Of a DNA stretch of 47,882 nucleotides, positions 41,856 to 47,882 are shown piece by piece. The stretch lies in NCBI GenBank assembly GCA_024403935.1, contig JAKSQV010000009.1, positions 1 through 47,882 of the forward strand, written 5' to 3'. The position numbers and the translations under genes were made by a program. How positions within the stretch are numbered: position 1 is the stretch's first letter; the number at the start of each line of letters is the position of its first letter. The stretch comes from Ruminococcus sp. (GTDB lineage: Bacteria; Bacillota; Clostridia; Oscillospirales; Ruminococcaceae). Below the pieces are notes generated by a model. That model saw nothing but the letters and a program-made list of their open reading frames with translations, ran no database searches and had not been told where the DNA came from.

Positions 41856-41877
41856 GGGCTTGACAATCGTCAAGCCC
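41856..41877. repeat. Inverted repeat overlapping the -35 box of the B12 operon
   Basis: GGGCTTGAC, AATC, GTCAAGCCC: a perfect 9-bp inverted repeat. It contains the whole -35 hexamer TTGACA (41860-41865). It may be an operator, or the remains of a terminator of the antiporter gene without a T tract. Confidence 0.65.
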
Positions 41878-41888
41878 TATGCTATAAT
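41860..41888 (+). promoter_or_regulatory. Promoter of the cobalamin riboswitch operon
   Basis: TTGACA (41860-41865), a 17-base spacer and TATAAT (41883-41888): a full consensus match. The riboswitch begins about 10-15 bases downstream. Confidence 0.9.
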
Positions 41889-41899
41889 GTGATATATTG

Positions 41900-42000
41900 T
41901 CTGAAGCTGAGGGAAGTGCGGTGAGAATCCGTCGCAGCAGTCACTACCGTATGGCGCATGCCGAAGTCGGGTCGCTCGTCAGGCAATTCTGATATTCACG
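41900..42000 (+). promoter_or_regulatory. Cobalamin (B12) riboswitch
   Basis: The conserved core is visible: GGGAAG (41911-41916), GGTGAGAATCC (41920-41930), GCAGC (41934-41938) followed by a CACTACCGT segment like the CGCTACTGT element, and GCCGAAGTCGGG (41960-41971) resembling the GAAGYCAGG element, with a closing GTCAGGC. The boundaries are approximate. It lies in the long leader of a five-gene unit encoding an ECF transporter and surface proteins and is followed by an intrinsic terminator, so B12 would shut the genes off by early termination. Confidence 0.88.
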
Positions 42001-42062
42001 TTTTTGGACAGTGGAAAACGGAAATCATAAGCTGCACCCATGTCGGCTTATTATGTCTGATG

Positions 42063-42092
42063 AAGCTTTCCTGCTGAGGAAAGCTTTTTTTT
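42063..42092 (+). terminator. Riboswitch-controlled terminator
   Basis: AAGCTTTCC (42063-42071), loop TGCTGA, GGAAAGCTT (42078-42086), with T continuing to 42092. It lies between the riboswitch core and the first ATG at 42122. The competing antiterminator pairing was not resolved by eye; an ATAAGC/GCTTAT pairing at 42026-42051 lies between. Confidence 0.9.
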
Positions 42093-42121
42093 ATTGTCCC
42101 GATAACAGAAGGAGAGTTATT

Positions 42122-43036
42122 ATGAAAAAAATCATCACAGCGGCAGCCGCCGCACTTATTACCTGCTCAGCAATGAGCCTCACCTCATTTGCTGCGGAAG
42201 CATCAGCCGATGTATTTGTTTCAGTTTCAGATGAGAACGGCAAGCTTGCCGTTGCTCATGAGGCAGTAACAGTATCCGATACAGACAGAGACGGAAAGCT
42301 CACGGTCTGTGATGCGCTGGTGTGCGCTCACGACAGTTTCTATGAGGGCGGAGCTGCGGCAGGCTTCAAAGCATCACAGACTCAGTATGGTATCAGCCTC
42401 GACAAGCTCTGGGGAACAGAGAACGGCGGCAGCTACGGCTACTGCGTAAACAGCTCCTCATGCCTCAGCCTGTCGGATGAGATAAAAAGCGGTGACAGTG
42501 TTTACGCTTATGTATACCCTGATGTGAATGCATGGAGCACGACGTTTTTCAGCTGGTTCGATAAGAATGAAGCAGATGCCGAACAGGGTGCGGAGGTTGA
42601 GCTGACGCTTCTCCGTACAAGCTACGACGAGAATTATCAGATGGTGCCTGTTCCGGTTGAGGGAGCCGATGTTACGATAAATGGCAGGAGCTCGGGATAT
42701 AAGACCGATGCAGAGGGCAGAGCCGTGATAAAGCTTGATGATTCAGGCAGAAATGTCATCAGTGCGGAAGCAGAAGGAATCATACTCATTCCGCCTGTAT
42801 TTATTGCCAATGTTGACGGAGAGGAGACAGCTGTATCAACGGCTTCGGCAACTGCTGCTGTGACAACTGCAACAAAAACGACAGCCACAACTGCCGTATC
42901 AAAGTCCTCCGCTGTGTCAACCTCGGCAGGCAGCCGGTCCCCGAAGACAGGCGATACAGATGCAGCCGCCGCTCTCGTTGTTCTCGGAGCAGGAGCACTT
43001 ACAGCGTTTGCTCTGAGAAAAAAGAATGAAGACTGA
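42122..43036 (+). CDS. Secreted, wall-sorted DUF4430-like protein of the B12 operon
   Basis: 304 residues; start at ATG 42122 with GGAGAG 5 bases upstream. Signal peptide (1 to about 24, cut near SFA-A); a domain (about 28-145) with an EF-hand-like DTDRDGKLTVCDA loop (53-65), YGISLDKLWGTENGGSYGYCVN and SGDSVYAYVYPD, which resembles the DUF4430 beta domain of transcobalamin-like proteins; an Ig/transthyretin-like domain (about 155-231, VEGADVTINGRSSGYKTDAEG); a Thr/Ser/Ala linker; and a sorting signal SPKTG (273-277), hydrophobic helix and RKK tail. It should be attached to the wall, or at least the membrane, outside the cell. Corrinoid binding is inferred from riboswitch control and neighbours. 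Confidence 0.85.
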   Translation: MKKIITAAAAALITCSAMSLTSFAAEASADVFVSVSDENGKLAVAHEAVTVSDTDRDGKLTVCDALVCAHDSFYEGGAAAGFKASQTQYGISLDKLWGTENGGSYGYCVNSSSCLSLSDEIKSGDSVYAYVYPDVNAWSTTFFSWFDKNEADAEQGAEVELTLLRTSYDENYQMVPVPVEGADVTINGRSSGYKTDAEGRAVIKLDDSGRNVISAEAEGIILIPPVFIANVDGEETAVSTASATAAVTTATKTTATTAVSKSSAVSTSAGSRSPKTGDTDAAAALVVLGAGALTAFALRKKNED

Positions 43037-44798
43037 TGTGTTCAGGCTCATGTGTCGGGCAGCAGCTTTTATGCTGCTGCTCGCGCTTGTACCGATAAGA
43101 GCCGCAGGATATGACCGCTCCGCTGACGAGATAGACGGCCTTATCAGCGATATTATTTCATACAAGCTCGAGTGCTCGGGCGCAGATGATATTGACGGCT
43201 GGATAGACGGCAGTCTGACTGACGGAGCAGGTGTGATGTCTGACTGGTATATCATTGCACTCAGTCAGTACGGTCAGTATGATATGAGCTCATACAGGCA
43301 GGCTCTCATGGGCTATATCAGCGAGAATAACGTACATTCGGCTGTTACGCGTGAGAAGTACGCACTTGCGCTCTGTGCGGCAGGCAGCGACAGTGAATGC
43401 ATATACGATGTGCTTGGCAATTTGACAAATGACAGCGGCATAATGAGCAGGATATACGGGCTGCATCTTCTGAATAACGGATTCGCTTTCGGAGATCTTA
43501 CCTGTACGGCTGTCATTGATGATCTTCTCAGCCTTCAGTTTGCGGACGGCGGCTGGGCACTGTTCGGTGAATACGGCGACATTGATGTTACAGCCATGAC
43601 GATACAGGCACTTGCGCCGTATTATGACGAGTACAGTGACGTTCAGGAAGCGATAGACCGCGGGCTCGGCTTCCTCTCGGAAAAGCAGATGAGTGACGGC
43701 GGCTATCAGAGCTTCGGCACGCCCAATCCTGACAGCTCCGCACAGGTTCTGACTGCGCTTTCCGCGCTTGGTATCGACTGCGGCAATGACAGCCGCTTCA
43801 TCAAGGACGGTTGCACTGTTATCGACAGTATGCTCACATATCGGATACCCGACGGCGGATACAGTCACGTTTCGGGCGGCAGCGTTAACGAGACTGCCAC
43901 GATACAGGTATTATGCTCCTATATTGCGTACAGCCGTATGCTCAGCGGCAATACTCCGTTCTATATCCTTGACGGCTGGCAGGAAGAGCAGACTGACAGT
44001 GATACAGCATCAGAAACGACCGTAACCGCATTGGCAGAGAAAACCGTCACAACGGAAACATCTGCGGTCTTGTCAACGGTGAGTACATTTGTATCCGCTG
44101 CGGCTTCGTCAGTTTCACAATCTGTAAAAACCACGGTTTCCGCTGCCTTGTCAGCCGAGCCGACAGATACGGCGGCACAAACTTCAACAGCCGTATCAGC
44201 AGCGCAGAGCGGCGTATACAAGCCGACAGCCATACTTATCATTATCAGCGCAGGAGCAGTTCTGTCCGTTCTTCTGCTTGCACTCGGAAAGCGCAGCATG
44301 AAGAATTTCATTTTTATCGGAGCTGCTGCCGCGGCAGGTATCATTATCGTTCTTGTGACGGATATACATTCTCCTGACGAATACTATGCACAGTCGGAGA
44401 ACGCGGATAATACCGCAGGTACGGTCACTCTGGAGATACGCTGTGATACGGTCGCAGACAGGTCTGACAATGAATATATACCCGATGACGGCACTGTTCT
44501 CGTTCCGACAGAATTCGGCATCTCAGAGGGCGATACTGTCTGTGATGTACTCATTGAAGCTGCGAGGAAATACGGGATACAGGTCGATATGCGCGGTACA
44601 GGAAAGACGGGATATGTTGCAGGGATAAATTATCTGTATGAGCAGGATTTCGGTGACCTTTCAGGCTGGGTATTCCATGTGAACGGCATTTCCGCTTCGT
44701 GCGGCTGCAGTGAATACGAGCTGTCTGACGGAGATGTTATAGAATGGCTTTACACCTGCGAGATAGGACATGATCTGAATGAGGTATATGAGGAATGA
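43026..44798 (+). CDS. Transcobalamin-like protein: alpha/alpha toroid, membrane hairpin and DUF4430 domain
   Basis: 590 residues; start overlaps the previous gene by 11 bases. Signal peptide (1 to about 27). Residues about 30-310 form an alpha/alpha toroid with prenyltransferase-type repeats (FADGGW 172-177, SDGGYQ 223-228, PDGGYS 275-280). A Ser/Thr/Ala/Val linker (about 320-398) leads to two membrane helices (401-420, 428-446) with a basic GKRSMKN turn between, putting both flanking domains outside. Residues about 466-580 are a DUF4430 domain with DTVCDVLIEAARKYGI and GWVFHVNG (547-554). Toroid plus beta domain is the make-up of intrinsic factor and transcobalamin. With the riboswitch and ECF genes this suggests a cobalamin receptor; binding is not proven by sequence. 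Confidence 0.85.
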   Translation: MKTDVFRLMCRAAAFMLLLALVPIRAAGYDRSADEIDGLISDIISYKLECSGADDIDGWIDGSLTDGAGVMSDWYIIALSQYGQYDMSSYRQALMGYISENNVHSAVTREKYALALCAAGSDSECIYDVLGNLTNDSGIMSRIYGLHLLNNGFAFGDLTCTAVIDDLLSLQFADGGWALFGEYGDIDVTAMTIQALAPYYDEYSDVQEAIDRGLGFLSEKQMSDGGYQSFGTPNPDSSAQVLTALSALGIDCGNDSRFIKDGCTVIDSMLTYRIPDGGYSHVSGGSVNETATIQVLCSYIAYSRMLSGNTPFYILDGWQEEQTDSDTASETTVTALAEKTVTTETSAVLSTVSTFVSAAASSVSQSVKTTVSAALSAEPTDTAAQTSTAVSAAQSGVYKPTAILIIISAGAVLSVLLLALGKRSMKNFIFIGAAAAAGIIIVLVTDIHSPDEYYAQSENADNTAGTVTLEIRCDTVADRSDNEYIPDDGTVLVPTEFGISEGDTVCDVLIEAARKYGIQVDMRGTGKTGYVAGINYLYEQDFGDLSGWVFHVNGISASCGCSEYELSDGDVIEWLYTCEIGHDLNEVYEE

Positions 44799-45673
44799 GG
44801 AGCTTTTCTGACTTTGACCCTGCTGCGGTCACAATATGGTTTTTCAGCGTGATCGGGATCGCAATGTTCTCGGGACATCCGTTGCTGATAGGCATATCTC
44901 TTGCAGGAGCACTGCTGCTTTTTCTTGTGTTCAACGGCACAAAGCACCTCAGCTCGCACCTTTTCTTTCTTCTGATGTTTGCAGTGCTTACAGTTGTGAA
45001 TCCGCTCATTTCACATAACGGTGCGACAGTGCTGCTGGTGATAAATGACCGCCCATTCACTCTTGAAGCTCTGCTTTATGGTGCAAATTCTGCCGCAATG
45101 ATAGTCGGAGTCATCTACTGGTTCCGCTCCTTTACACAGATAATGACGAGCGAGAAAATACTCTGTGTTACGGGAGCTTTCTCCCCGAAGCTTGCACTTG
45201 TGCTGTCGATGGCACTACGTACCGTGCCAATGCTCGTACACCGTGCAGAACAGGTCAGCAGCACCCAGAAGGCGATGGGACTTTACAGCGATGACAACAT
45301 CATTGATGACATACGCGGACGTTCGCGCGTATTCTCGATAGTCTCGATGTGGGCACTCGAAAACGGCATAATCACTGCTGACAGTATGAGCGCACGCGGC
45401 TACGGAAGCGGCAGGCGGACTCAGCTTCGCAGATTTCGCTTTACTGTATCGGATGCCGTATTCACGCTTGTGACACTCGCTCTCCTTGCCGTGACTGCGG
45501 CGGCTTCGGCATTGGATTCGCTTTCATATACATTCTATCCGCACATCAGTATTACGTCCGAGGGCGTACTCGGTCTGTGCGGAGCCGCAGCCTACGGAGT
45601 GCTTGTGCTTCTGCCGGTTATTATAGAAACGGAGGTGTCGCTGAGATGGAAATACTTGCGGTCGAAGATCTGA
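44795..45673 (+). CDS. ecfT: ECF transporter transmembrane protein EcfT
   Basis: 292 residues with about six membrane helices and a cytosolic coupling region. The second ATPase-contact motif is SMSARGYGSG (Ala-Arg-Gly, 200-202); the first, usually Ala-Arg-Gly too, reads QKAMGL (158-163). These helices sit in the groove of the EcfA ATPases. It overlaps the transcobalamin-like gene by 4 bases (ATGA) and the ATPase gene by 28 bases, so this T component is probably dedicated to this system rather than shared. Confidence 0.9.
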   Translation: MRSFSDFDPAAVTIWFFSVIGIAMFSGHPLLIGISLAGALLLFLVFNGTKHLSSHLFFLLMFAVLTVVNPLISHNGATVLLVINDRPFTLEALLYGANSAAMIVGVIYWFRSFTQIMTSEKILCVTGAFSPKLALVLSMALRTVPMLVHRAEQVSSTQKAMGLYSDDNIIDDIRGRSRVFSIVSMWALENGIITADSMSARGYGSGRRTQLRRFRFTVSDAVFTLVTLALLAVTAAASALDSLSYTFYPHISITSEGVLGLCGAAAYGVLVLLPVIIETEVSLRWKYLRSKI

Positions 45674-47280
45674 CATTTACTTATCCGAGGTGCTCTGAGC
45701 CTGCTGTAAAGGACGTTTCATTCTCTCTTGAAAAGGGTGAACTGGCAGTGCTGTGCGGAGCTTCCGGAAGCGGGAAAACCACACTCCTGCGTATGCTCAA
45801 GCGCGAGCTGACACCGCTCGGCGAACGTACGGGACGTATCATTTTCCGTGGAAATGATATTGCAGAGCTTGATGAGCGTACATCTGCGGCGCGTATCGGT
45901 TTTGTCATGCAGCAGCCCGATCAGCAGATCGTGACTGATAAAGTCTGGCATGAGCTTGCATTCGGACTTGAGAATCTCGGCGTTCCGCAGAACGAGATCG
46001 CACGCCGTATAGCCGAAACAGCAAGCTGCTTCGGTATTGAGGAATGGTACGACAGGAACACTGAGGAGCTTTCTGGCGGACAGAAGCAGCTTCTCAATCT
46101 TGCGGCAGTGCTTGTCATGCAGCCCGATATTCTTATCCTTGATGAGCCGACAGCTCAGCTTGACCCCATTGCTGCGGCAGACTTCATTTCCGTGCTGAGA
46201 CGGCTGAATCAGGATATGTCGCTGACCATGATAGTGGCAGAACACCGCCTTGAGGAAGTCGTACCGGTATGCGACAGACTGATGATAATGGAGAACGGTG
46301 CTCTTACAGCAAATGGTTCTCCCGAGCAGGTGATACCCACTCTTCGCGGTCAGGGTACACTTCTCGGGATGCCTGCGGCAGCACGTCTCTATACCGAGCT
46401 TGAAGACGGCGGAAGCTGTCCGCTTACCGTGCGTGATGGCAGAAGCTACGTCGAGAGCACCTATCGCTGTGAAGTAACGGAGCTTCCTGCGGAAAATTAT
46501 ACTGTTCCCGATCTGCCTGCCCTGACGCTGAGCAATGTGTGGTTCAGATATGACCGACACTCCCGTGATATTATCAAGGGGCTTGAGCTGTCGGTCGGAG
46601 TCGGCGAGATATTCTGCATACTCGGCGGCAACGGCTCGGGCAAGACAACGGCTCTCAGCACAGCGGCAGGCTTGCTGAAGCCGTATAAGGGAACGATACG
46701 GGTGTTCGGAAAAAAGCTCGGAGACTACCGCAACCGCTCGCTCTACCGTGAATGTCTCGCACTTCTGCCGCAGGATATACAGACCACCTTTCTGCACAAT
46801 TCCGTGCGCGAGGAGCTTGACGAATGCGGCGCGGATTTATCAGCTCTTCCGTTTGACATTTCACCGCTCCTTGACAAGCATCCGTATGACCTTTCAGGCG
46901 GTGAGCAGCAGCTTGCCGCGCTTGCAAAGGTGTTTGCCGCAAAGCCGAGACTGCTGCTGCTCGATGAGCCGACAAAGAGTCTCGATGCAGAGGCAAAAGC
47001 AGGAATGACCGCAGTTCTGCGCAGTCTTAAGGCTTCGGGGATAACTGCGGTAATTGTGACGCATGATCCTGAATTTGCTGCCGACTGTGCTGACAGGTGT
47101 GCAATGCTCTTCGGAGGGCAGATAGTTTCTGTCGGAACACCAATCGAATTCTTTTCCGCCAGCAGCTTTTACACGACAGCAGTCAGCCGCATGACACGCG
47201 GCTATTATAACGGAGCTGTTACCGTTGCGCAGGCGGCTGAGCTCTGCCGCGCAAACGGCAGGAAGGAGAGCCTGTTATGA
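45646..47280 (+). CDS. ECF transporter double ATPase (fused EcfA-EcfA')
   Basis: 544 residues; start at ATG 45646 after GGAGGTG, inside the end of ecfT (a longer reading from 45577 lies wholly inside ecfT). Two complete ABC domains in one chain: Walker A GASGSGKT (38-45), LSGGQ (142-146), ILILDEP (162-168), His200; then GGNGSGKT (327-334), LSGGE (416-420), LLLLDEP (436-442), His473. All catalytic residues appear intact in both. The pair would power uptake with EcfT and the S component. Overlap of 4 bases with the next gene. Confidence 0.92.
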   Translation: MEILAVEDLTFTYPRCSEPAVKDVSFSLEKGELAVLCGASGSGKTTLLRMLKRELTPLGERTGRIIFRGNDIAELDERTSAARIGFVMQQPDQQIVTDKVWHELAFGLENLGVPQNEIARRIAETASCFGIEEWYDRNTEELSGGQKQLLNLAAVLVMQPDILILDEPTAQLDPIAAADFISVLRRLNQDMSLTMIVAEHRLEEVVPVCDRLMIMENGALTANGSPEQVIPTLRGQGTLLGMPAAARLYTELEDGGSCPLTVRDGRSYVESTYRCEVTELPAENYTVPDLPALTLSNVWFRYDRHSRDIIKGLELSVGVGEIFCILGGNGSGKTTALSTAAGLLKPYKGTIRVFGKKLGDYRNRSLYRECLALLPQDIQTTFLHNSVREELDECGADLSALPFDISPLLDKHPYDLSGGEQQLAALAKVFAAKPRLLLLDEPTKSLDAEAKAGMTAVLRSLKASGITAVIVTHDPEFAADCADRCAMLFGGQIVSVGTPIEFFSASSFYTTAVSRMTRGYYNGAVTVAQAAELCRANGRKESLL

Positions 47281-47882
47281 TAGTTATACGAAGCCGCAGC
47301 ATCAGAAACCTGATAAAGATAACAGTACCGTTTATTGCTGTACCGCTGATAACAGTCGCAGGAGCACTTGTATTTGACAGGAAGCGGCATATCATCATTT
47401 CATTCGCCGTTGCGGCAATGGCACTGCTGCTGTTCATAGCAGGCTTTGAGCGCAAGACCTCAGGCTCGCGGCGGCTGGTGATAGTGTCGGTGATGACAGC
47501 TCTGTGCTTTGCGGGAAGATTCATTCCTGTCATCAAGCCTGTTGCCGCGCTCACGATAATCACCGCGCTGTATCTCGGCGGTGAAGCAGGCTTCCTTGTC
47601 GGAGCTATGGCGGCAGTGCTCTCGAACTTCTATTTCGGGCAGGGGCCGTGGACAGCGTTTCAGATGCTTGCGTGGGGCATTACGGGACTTTTCGCAGGAT
47701 TTCTCGCCGAGCCGCTGAAACGTCACAGGTGGCTTCTGCTTGTCTACGGAGCAGTTATGGGTGTGGTCTGCTCATTTGTCATGGACATCTGGACAGTGCT
47801 GTCCTACTCTGACGGATTCAGCATCAGGCTGTATCTGGCAGCACTGGTCACGGCAATACCGCATACTGTGATATATGTGGTA
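47277..47882 (+). CDS. ECF transporter S component, CbrT-like (3' truncated by window)
   Basis: 202 residues visible; the reading frame is open to the window edge. Basic N-terminus, then membrane helices (near 14-31, 36-53, and from 65 on). The segment AGRFIPVIKPVAALTIITALYLGGEAGFLVGAMAA followed by FYFGQGPWTAFQMLAWG resembles the CbrT-type cobalamin-specific S components of Firmicutes. It overlaps the ATPase gene by 4 bases. The S component sets substrate choice, and with the B12 riboswitch upstream cobalamin or a related corrinoid is the best call. Lost length is not known; further genes may follow. Confidence 0.85.
   Translation, partial: MIVIRSRSIRNLIKITVPFIAVPLITVAGALVFDRKRHIIISFAVAAMALLLFIAGFERKTSGSRRLVIVSVMTALCFAGRFIPVIKPVAALTIITALYLGGEAGFLVGAMAAVLSNFYFGQGPWTAFQMLAWGITGLFAGFLAEPLKRHRWLLLVYGAVMGVVCSFVMDIWTVLSYSDGFSIRLYLAALVTAIPHTVIYVV

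Follow-up and report, generated by a model that had tools for sequence, protein, structure and literature searches.

A putative riboswitch-controlled corrinoid uptake operon in Ruminococcus sp. that joins transcobalamin-type surface proteins to an ECF transporter

We describe a five-gene locus of Ruminococcus sp. that is probably an adenosylcobalamin (AdoCbl)-repressed operon for the uptake of corrinoids (B12), in which surface proteins would bind the corrinoid and pass it to a CbrT-like S component of an ECF transporter. The riboswitch, the gene set, the domain types, the relationship to CbrT, the conservation of the locus and the occurrence of gene 2 in fused or split form were established from sequences, fold predictions or genome comparisons. 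The locus as described in an initial annotation was confirmed, with corrections to gene 1, and the interpretation given there was partly supported.

Results

The window analysed (47,882 nt) spans the entire contig JAKSQV010000009.1 (C76) of a 1.65-Mb genome that is 74% complete. The features of the locus are as follows:

41860..41888, + strand: sigma-70-type promoter, TTGACA-17-TATAAT with TG preceding the second hexamer (12 of 12 consensus positions)
41884..42029, + strand: divergent AdoCbl riboswitch aptamer (RF01482 over its full length, 41 bits, below the gathering score of 50; covariation)
42062..42087, + strand: intrinsic terminator hairpin followed by a T-run, the likely expression platform
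42122..43036, + strand: gene 1, surface protein (structure model m11e2a1cb715c, fold matches, motif scan, anchor HMMs)
43026..44798, + strand: gene 2, toroid-DUF4430 protein (PF14478, 57.8 bits; toroid by sequence and fold; hydropathy; model)
44795..45673, + strand: gene 3, divergent EcfT (CbiQ-type) membrane component (PF02361, 31.5 bits, cut-off 25)
45646..47280, + strand: gene 4, fused EcfA-EcfA' ATPase (TIGR04520, 326.9 bits, cut-off 315)
47277..47882, + strand: gene 5, CbrT-like ECF S component (PF07155, 41 bits; 6fnp), truncated at 202 residues where the contig stops

Successive genes overlap by 11, 4, 28 and 4 nt, and the consensus promoter, the terminator and the five overlapping genes were all found as initially annotated. 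Similar promoter-like sequences, judged by eye, lie upstream of the riboswitch in several relatives.

At the Rfam gathering score the whole window gave no match, and the riboswitch was visible only at a relaxed threshold; by the gathering cut-off the element fails as a member of the AdoCbl family RF01482, a score that counts against the reading as B12 uptake. The RF01482 match had an E value of 2e-6 in a search of 300 bases and of 2.6e-6 in the whole genome, where it was the only one up to E 1. RF01689 also matched positions 41898-41985 (26.3 bits, under the gathering score of 36.5), and the elements of three relatives (L005, L006 and L011) exceed the RF01689 cut-off. When the element was aligned with those of nine relatives (n = 10), all 154 tested base-pair cells were paired (100%, versus 95.8% in shuffles and 35-51% in slid versions), and 11 two-sided changes were spread over five of 16 pairs (four of six pairs in P1), as counted on a structure drawn from the same ten sequences. 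The real pair-type count did not exceed that of the shuffles, being reached in 365 of 500. A conserved core and a covarying P1 helix, the features of the cobalamin riboswitch clan (CL00101), are both present, and it is the sub-gathering RF01482 match together with covariation that bears out the cobalamin riboswitch proposed initially. Folding of 42013-42098, which includes the terminator hairpin, gave a z of -3.76 versus shuffles; an RF00515 (PyrR) match (28.1 bits, gathering 54, E 0.042), which lies across the terminator hairpins at 41997-42094, can probably be put down to chance.

Genes 3 to 5 comprise an EcfT, two ATPase domains and an S component, with PF02361, TIGR04520 and PF07155 all above their cut-offs and a PF12822 match slightly below (29.8 bits, cut-off 30.7), and are thus an ECF transporter with the components that had been annotated. 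The fusion in gene 4 is also evident from its doubled motifs, two Walker A (residues 38 and 327) and two LSGG (residues 142 and 416). For gene 5, 6fnp was the sole match up to E 1 in a PDB search (E 2.5e-6), and a profile of 21 sequences ranked 6fnp first (1.9e-20), followed by 4hzu (1.7e-5) and 3p5n (6.5e-4); among solved S components it therefore ranks with CbrT rather than with a non-cobalamin family.

The product of gene 2 consists of a signal peptide, an alpha/alpha toroid (residues ~33-309), an S/T linker, two hydrophobic helices (~402-420 and ~429-447) and a DUF4430 domain (502-577), which agrees with the annotated toroid-DUF4430 membrane protein; in the predicted topology, toroid and DUF4430 domain are both expected to lie outside the cell. 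From residue 470 onward, the DUF4430 part was modelled poorly (pLDDT 28-75 in ten-residue blocks). Among relatives gene 2 is either fused or split, the split halves being separate membrane-anchored proteins. The 24 rows of alignment A1 matched 12 Pfam families at E up to 0.01, and PF01122, the alpha-domain family of animal transcobalamin, was none of these.

Gene 1 encodes a signal peptide, a predicted transcobalamin-type beta domain (residues ~26-133) that includes an EF-hand-like loop (residues 53-64, motif scan), a beta-sandwich domain (~141-234), a T/S linker, the sorting signal SPKTGD and a C-terminal helix. It had been described as a wall-sorted, DUF4430-like protein. Wall sorting is supported by SPKTGD, with anchor HMMs scoring under the NCBIfam cut-offs, and by six sortase-family matches in the genome, and likeness to DUF4430 is supported by the predicted fold; an assignment to DUF4430 by sequence failed, because Pfam found no such domain and profile comparison with DUF4430 rows gave an hhalign E of 0.34. 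The transcobalamin-type domain was recognised only through its predicted fold (VIA fold comparison); plain Foldseek placed transcobalamin ninth and put unrelated proteins, some of them beta-sandwiches, on top. The structural comparison with transcobalamin that had been suggested gave fold matches for both surface proteins; in the VIA comparison of gene 2, no transcobalamin stood among the best 50 rows, which does not exclude one, because a single domain occupies all 50. Taken together, DUF4430, the toroid and the predicted beta domain of gene 1 uphold the earlier statement that the locus is built from transcobalamin-type parts.

The gene set is conserved among relatives, and the pairing of transcobalamin-type with ECF genes is common in related bacteria. 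Several observations count against the main reading: six of 30 distinct relative loci (L040, L043, L050, L051, L053 and L056) showed no EcfT match in the stretch covered, the riboswitch is missing in L008 and L042, and for split-type loci it is missing nearby in five of 14 genomes. The proposed survey for co-occurrence with B12 riboswitches, carried out on 66 genomes, yielded 34 DUF4430-EcfT pairs among the matches listed, of which 14 to 17, depending on the distance cut-off, lacked a riboswitch nearby. These pairs were counted from start coordinates irrespective of contig breaks and relatedness, two genomes (G063 and G232) have no place among the matches listed, and the riboswitch filters were stricter and lose weak riboswitches. 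Relatives also occur in phage records, which are unannotated fecal contigs.

CbiD, an enzyme of corrin-ring biosynthesis, was found in 11 of 14 genomes searched, including ten of the 12 relatives that carry the gene set; most of these genomes may therefore make B12, judging from gene content, which also counts against the main reading. No CbiD was found in the genome of the window, which is weak evidence given its 74% completeness. A second B12-binding match in this genome (C2, 25.2 bits, under the cut-off) was dropped, as it lies in a frame that presumably encodes IMP dehydrogenase.

Discussion

If the switch works in the presumed direction, scarcity of AdoCbl would permit read-through of the terminator and expression of all five genes. 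Gene 2 would then provide a membrane-tethered binder of the transcobalamin type, whose transmembrane hairpin would hold the toroid and the beta-grasp domain together outside the cell, where both may close round one corrinoid. Gene 1 would expose another beta domain of the transcobalamin type at the cell wall; calcium may stabilise this domain, which perhaps also binds corrinoid. The corrinoid would be handed to the CbrT-like S component and driven through the membrane by the dedicated EcfT-EcfAA' motor. A more specific version can be put forward only tentatively. In it, gene 2 would act as a split clamp: docked on the S component, this receptor would close on the corrinoid in the manner of transcobalamin and release it directly into S, and gene 1 would serve as a calcium-dependent wall-bound relay.

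That the surface proteins take part in import may be questioned, since the S components of ECF transporters are commonly regarded as binding their substrate without a partner. The operon might be B12-regulated and the corrinoid imported via S alone, the surface proteins hoarding it, withholding it from competitors or storing it without hand-over. ECF-CbrT is reported to transport cobalamin and cobinamide, with no outside binding protein mentioned in the accessible text (PMC5997447), gene 1 is anchored in the wall, distant from the membrane, and L043, L050 and L053 have DUF4430 genes with neither an EcfT nor an S match in the stretch covered. However, gene 2 appears membrane-anchored and overlaps the ECF genes, and in L040 the S gene follows the gene 2 relative after 14 nt on a 6.9-kb contig without an EcfT match, which points to a partnership of gene 2 with S; we consider import via S alone unlikely. 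The toroid itself is no pointer to B12: its fold is matched best by terpene cyclases and sugar epimerases, namely squalene-hopene cyclase, drimenyl diphosphate synthase and cellobiose 2-epimerase. It might be an enzyme at the cell surface, resembling a terpene cyclase, an epimerase or a lyase, and linked to B12 by mere co-regulation. DxDD, a cyclase motif and the only catalytic one scanned, was, however, absent from the toroid in all 21 toroid-bearing rows of A1, its two occurrences (residue 536 in L008 and 537 in L042) falling in the DUF4430 part, and the toroid appears secreted and joined to DUF4430, which makes a surface enzyme very improbable.

Another explanation, in line with the distribution of CbiD, is that the transporter serves B12-making bacteria with a different precursor or cobalt-related substrate (cobinamide, alpha-ribazole, a lower ligand base or cobalt); cobinamide is among the substrates of CbrT, according to the accessible text (PMC5997447), and the EcfT belongs to Pfam's CbiQ cobalt transport family. 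Of the S components with solved structures, CbrT is nevertheless the one closest to the S profile, and one would expect transcobalamin-type domains to take a complete corrinoid and not a base or a metal, so that we regard this explanation as quite improbable.

The initial annotation knew of no described ECF system of this kind, which was not supported, as the pairing was predicted by Burroughs, Balaji, Iyer and Aravind in 2007. In the accessible part of that paper (PMC1796856), transcobalamin-type SLBB proteins are reported to lie generally in operons with a CbiO-like ATPase and a CbiQ-like membrane protein, to be often fused to a toroid, in several cases anchored in the Gram-positive manner, and often accompanied by a second paralogue, in bacteria that usually lack key enzymes of B12 biosynthesis; B12 scavenging was proposed as their function, and the animal B12 carriers were proposed to derive from them. 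The Ruminococcus locus shares with this class the SLBB/DUF4430 beta-grasp domain, the N-terminal toroid fusion (common in the class, not universal), the signal peptide, the wall anchor, the second surface protein and the CbiO/CbiQ operon, as seen from hydropathy, anchor motifs, sortases and gene order. It differs in the transmembrane hairpin that links toroid and DUF4430, of which the accessible text makes no mention, and in that most relatives searched here keep CbiD; beyond that text, the S component is here identified as CbrT-like, riboswitches are shown, and the second surface protein is recognised by predicted fold alone. ECF-CbrT of Lactobacillus delbrueckii (6fnp; PMC5997447, accessible text) is of the same transporter type, and of the solved S components its own is the closest in sequence, but its CbrT is encoded in an nrdJ-cbrS-cbrT-pduO cluster and its group shares one ECF module, whereas the Ruminococcus locus has its own divergent EcfT and fused EcfAA' in one operon with the surface proteins. 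With animal transcobalamin, haptocorrin and intrinsic factor it shares a toroid followed by a DUF4430-type beta domain, with fold matches for both surface proteins, but the animal carriers are soluble and the bacterial proteins are membrane- or wall-anchored and lack a PF01122 match. To BtuG and BtuH of the Bacteroidetes the likeness is one of logic only, surface capture of B12 before the transporter, BtuG being a beta-propeller that works with the outer-membrane BtuB (PMC6977713, accessible text). In the literature searched, mainly open-access, we found no test of a transcobalamin-type/ECF system, only the 2007 prediction and a remark on BtuH.

The locus and its relatives constitute a small testable system of two transcobalamin-type surface proteins, a CbrT-like S component, its own motor and a B12 switch, which would test the 2007 proposal of a bacterial origin of the animal B12 carriers (PMC1796856, accessible text). 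If the split-clamp version were true, an ECF importer would here have an extracellular binding protein of its own, and the locus would preserve, in a living bacterium, a form of the machinery that may be ancestral to animal intrinsic factor and transcobalamin. The system would also test the common view that the S components of ECF transporters work without an outside binding protein.

Locus structure and riboswitch

The initial annotation had read the end of the window as a promoter, cobalamin riboswitch and terminator ahead of five overlapping genes, and this layout was recovered. The genes overlap by 11, 4, 28 and 4 nt, gene 5 being broken off by the contig end (the window spans all of contig C76; the genome is a 1.65-Mb assembly of 76 contigs, 74% complete).

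Elements ahead of gene 1
41860-41888, promoter, 12/12 consensus positions
41884-42029, RF01482-type riboswitch, between promoter and terminator (41 bits, gathering cut-off 50, E 2e-6)
42062-42087, terminator

At the Rfam gathering cut-off the entire window gave no match, so the riboswitch is a divergent member. We take it as real because the RF01482 match is the sole one in the genome up to E 1, many core columns are invariant in an alignment of ten sequences (window plus nine relatives), pairing is intact in 154/154 base-pair cells tested (shuffles 95.8%, slid versions 35-51%, the helices being drawn from the same alignment), and two-sided changes occur in 5/16 pairs, four of them in P1 (11 cells vs. 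4.2 in shuffles). The pair-type count was not above shuffles (365/500 reach it). None of 200 shuffles folds as well as the switch region (42013-42098; z -3.76).

Transporter and surface proteins

EcfT (gene 3) scored above the PF02361 cut-off with 31.5 bits, and gene 4 passed the TIGR04520 cut-off and carries two sets of ATPase motifs, confirming the predicted EcfT and fused EcfA-EcfA'. The S component (gene 5) exceeded the PF07155 cut-off, and its single PDB match up to E 1 was 6fnp (2.5e-6), a CbrT structure. A profile of 21 S sequences ranked 6fnp first (1.9e-20), ahead of 4hzu (1.7e-5) and RibU 3p5n (6.5e-4); the S component thus groups with the cobalamin one among solved S components, and its description as CbrT-like holds in that set. 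Gene 1, the wall-sorted protein, has an EF-hand- or dockerin-like acidic loop (residues 53-64; window 42278-42313) within its predicted transcobalamin-type beta domain, kept in 13/13 aligned sequences, which suggests a calcium site.

Conservation of the gene set

Among named loci with relatives of gene 2 (the toroid-DUF4430 protein), 10/11 are labelled Ruminococcus, R. flavefaciens included, and one Oscillospiraceae. Three unannotated fecal 'Bacteriophage sp.' contigs (MT837027.1, MT835727.1, MT839226.1) also hold gene 2 relatives (33-41% identity), possibly bacterial DNA deposited as phage. We examined 31 relative loci, 30 of them distinct (L008 and L039 are identical). The full order gene 1-gene 2-EcfT-EcfAA'-S occurs in 11 (L002, L004-L011, L041, L042); L003, which is missing gene 1, and L012 are truncated at contig ends, and L038 (3235-8612) has EcfT, EcfA and S ahead of genes 1 and 2. 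EcfT is present in 24/30 distinct loci and was not found in the stretches examined of L040, L043, L050, L051, L053 and L056. In L040 (1247-3801) an S component gene follows the gene 2 relative by 14 nt, with no EcfT match in its 6.9-kb contig; in the other five the stretch examined has toroid and/or DUF4430 genes and neither EcfT nor S was matched, though L053 has a cobalamin riboswitch in front. A riboswitch precedes gene 1 in 10/12 gene 1-leading loci, the window counted (weakly in L041, 24.9 bits); none was found there in L008 and L042.

Toroid and DUF4430 are separate genes in, e.g., L044, L046, L047, L052, L054, L055 and L057, all seven with EcfT. In L044, L046 and L047 the toroid-helix and helix-DUF4430 proteins are the exact pieces joined in gene 2; the occurrence of these neighbours in both joined and separate form suggests that the toroid and DUF4430 halves work as a unit. 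By eye, the DUF4430 protein of 11 split-type loci begins with a hydrophobic segment, with a lipobox-like cysteine in 6/11, and the toroid protein, where its sequence was examined, has a hydrophobic or sorting segment at its C-terminus. RF00174 riboswitches lie near toroid or DUF4430 genes in 9/14 split-type genomes (G094, G059, G091, G018, G083, G069, G081, G050, G013) and were not found near them in G023, whose contig stops just upstream of the toroid gene, G055, G033, G071 and G045.

DUF4430 occurs in 67/147 genomes of the window's class, read as Clostridia, the window genome counted. Co-occurrence of DUF4430 with cobalamin riboswitches and EcfT was surveyed in the other 66, where the matches listed comprise 127 RF00174, 139 PF02361 and 149 DUF4430 places: a riboswitch lies within 12 kb of 101/149 listed DUF4430 places, spanning 51/64 genomes with such a place, and 63/127 riboswitches have one within 12 kb. 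Only 55/149 listed DUF4430 places have an EcfT place by PF02361 within 5 kb. Among listed places, a riboswitch lies within 10 kb of 19/34 DUF4430-adjacent EcfT (within 5 kb) vs. 10/105 other EcfT (odds ratio 12, p 8.5e-8, kinship ignored); 15/34 pairs have none listed in that range, perhaps through contig ends, weak riboswitches or another kind of control. EcfT genes adjoining DUF4430 score below 50 bits in every listing inspected by eye, the best PF02361 match in most of the same genomes reaching about 145-195 bits; the DUF4430-linked EcfT is a divergent motor, a predicted distinct ECF motor lineage.

B12 metabolism

The window genome encodes a methionine synthase of MetH type (466.5 bits to TIGR02082, below the full-length cut-off of 1010.85), so the bacterium probably uses B12. 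CbiD, a corrin-ring gene, was searched in 14 genomes (G000, G100-G108, G019, G096, G065, G028) and found in 11: 10/12 relatives with the gene set (L002-L011, L041, L042; split into two pieces in G105) and G028, which has gene 2 and S only. It was not found in the window genome (74% complete), G100 or G065. Such a spread would be surprising were the operon a marker of B12 auxotrophy; salvage by B12 producers or incomplete pathways are possible.

R. flavefaciens FD-1 (G105:C119) has a further cobalamin riboswitch ahead of three genes (L061, 2596-7169), possibly another B12-switched uptake locus, its chelatase lying at the cell surface:
CbiK-like cobaltochelatase relative, secretion-like start (237 bits, cut-off 400)
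unassigned protein, possibly a binding protein
BtuC-like permease (217.6 bits, cut-off 334)

Discussion

The initial annotation knew of no described ECF system with such a receptor, a view that the literature does not support: passages of Burroughs et al. 2007 (PMC1796856) name the clade, with toroid fusions, anchors, paired surface proteins and CbiO/CbiQ operons, propose B12 scavenging and suggest lateral transfer to animals, so the window locus belongs to a kind already predicted. According to the same passages, key enzymes of B12 biosynthesis are usually absent from such bacteria, whereas most relatives searched here have CbiD, which counts against that statement and a plain auxotroph picture. 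Among the literature matches listed we found no experimental test of such a system. New here are the CbrT-like S component, the quantified riboswitch linkage, the membrane-hairpin fusion with its split relatives, the transcobalamin beta domain of gene 1 at fold level with its EF-hand-like loop, and the CbiD finding. The locus is very likely a B12-regulated corrinoid import operon; genes 1 and 2 likely contain transcobalamin-type parts, corrinoid binding by both is probable, and a hand-over of corrinoid from these surface proteins to the S component is plausible.
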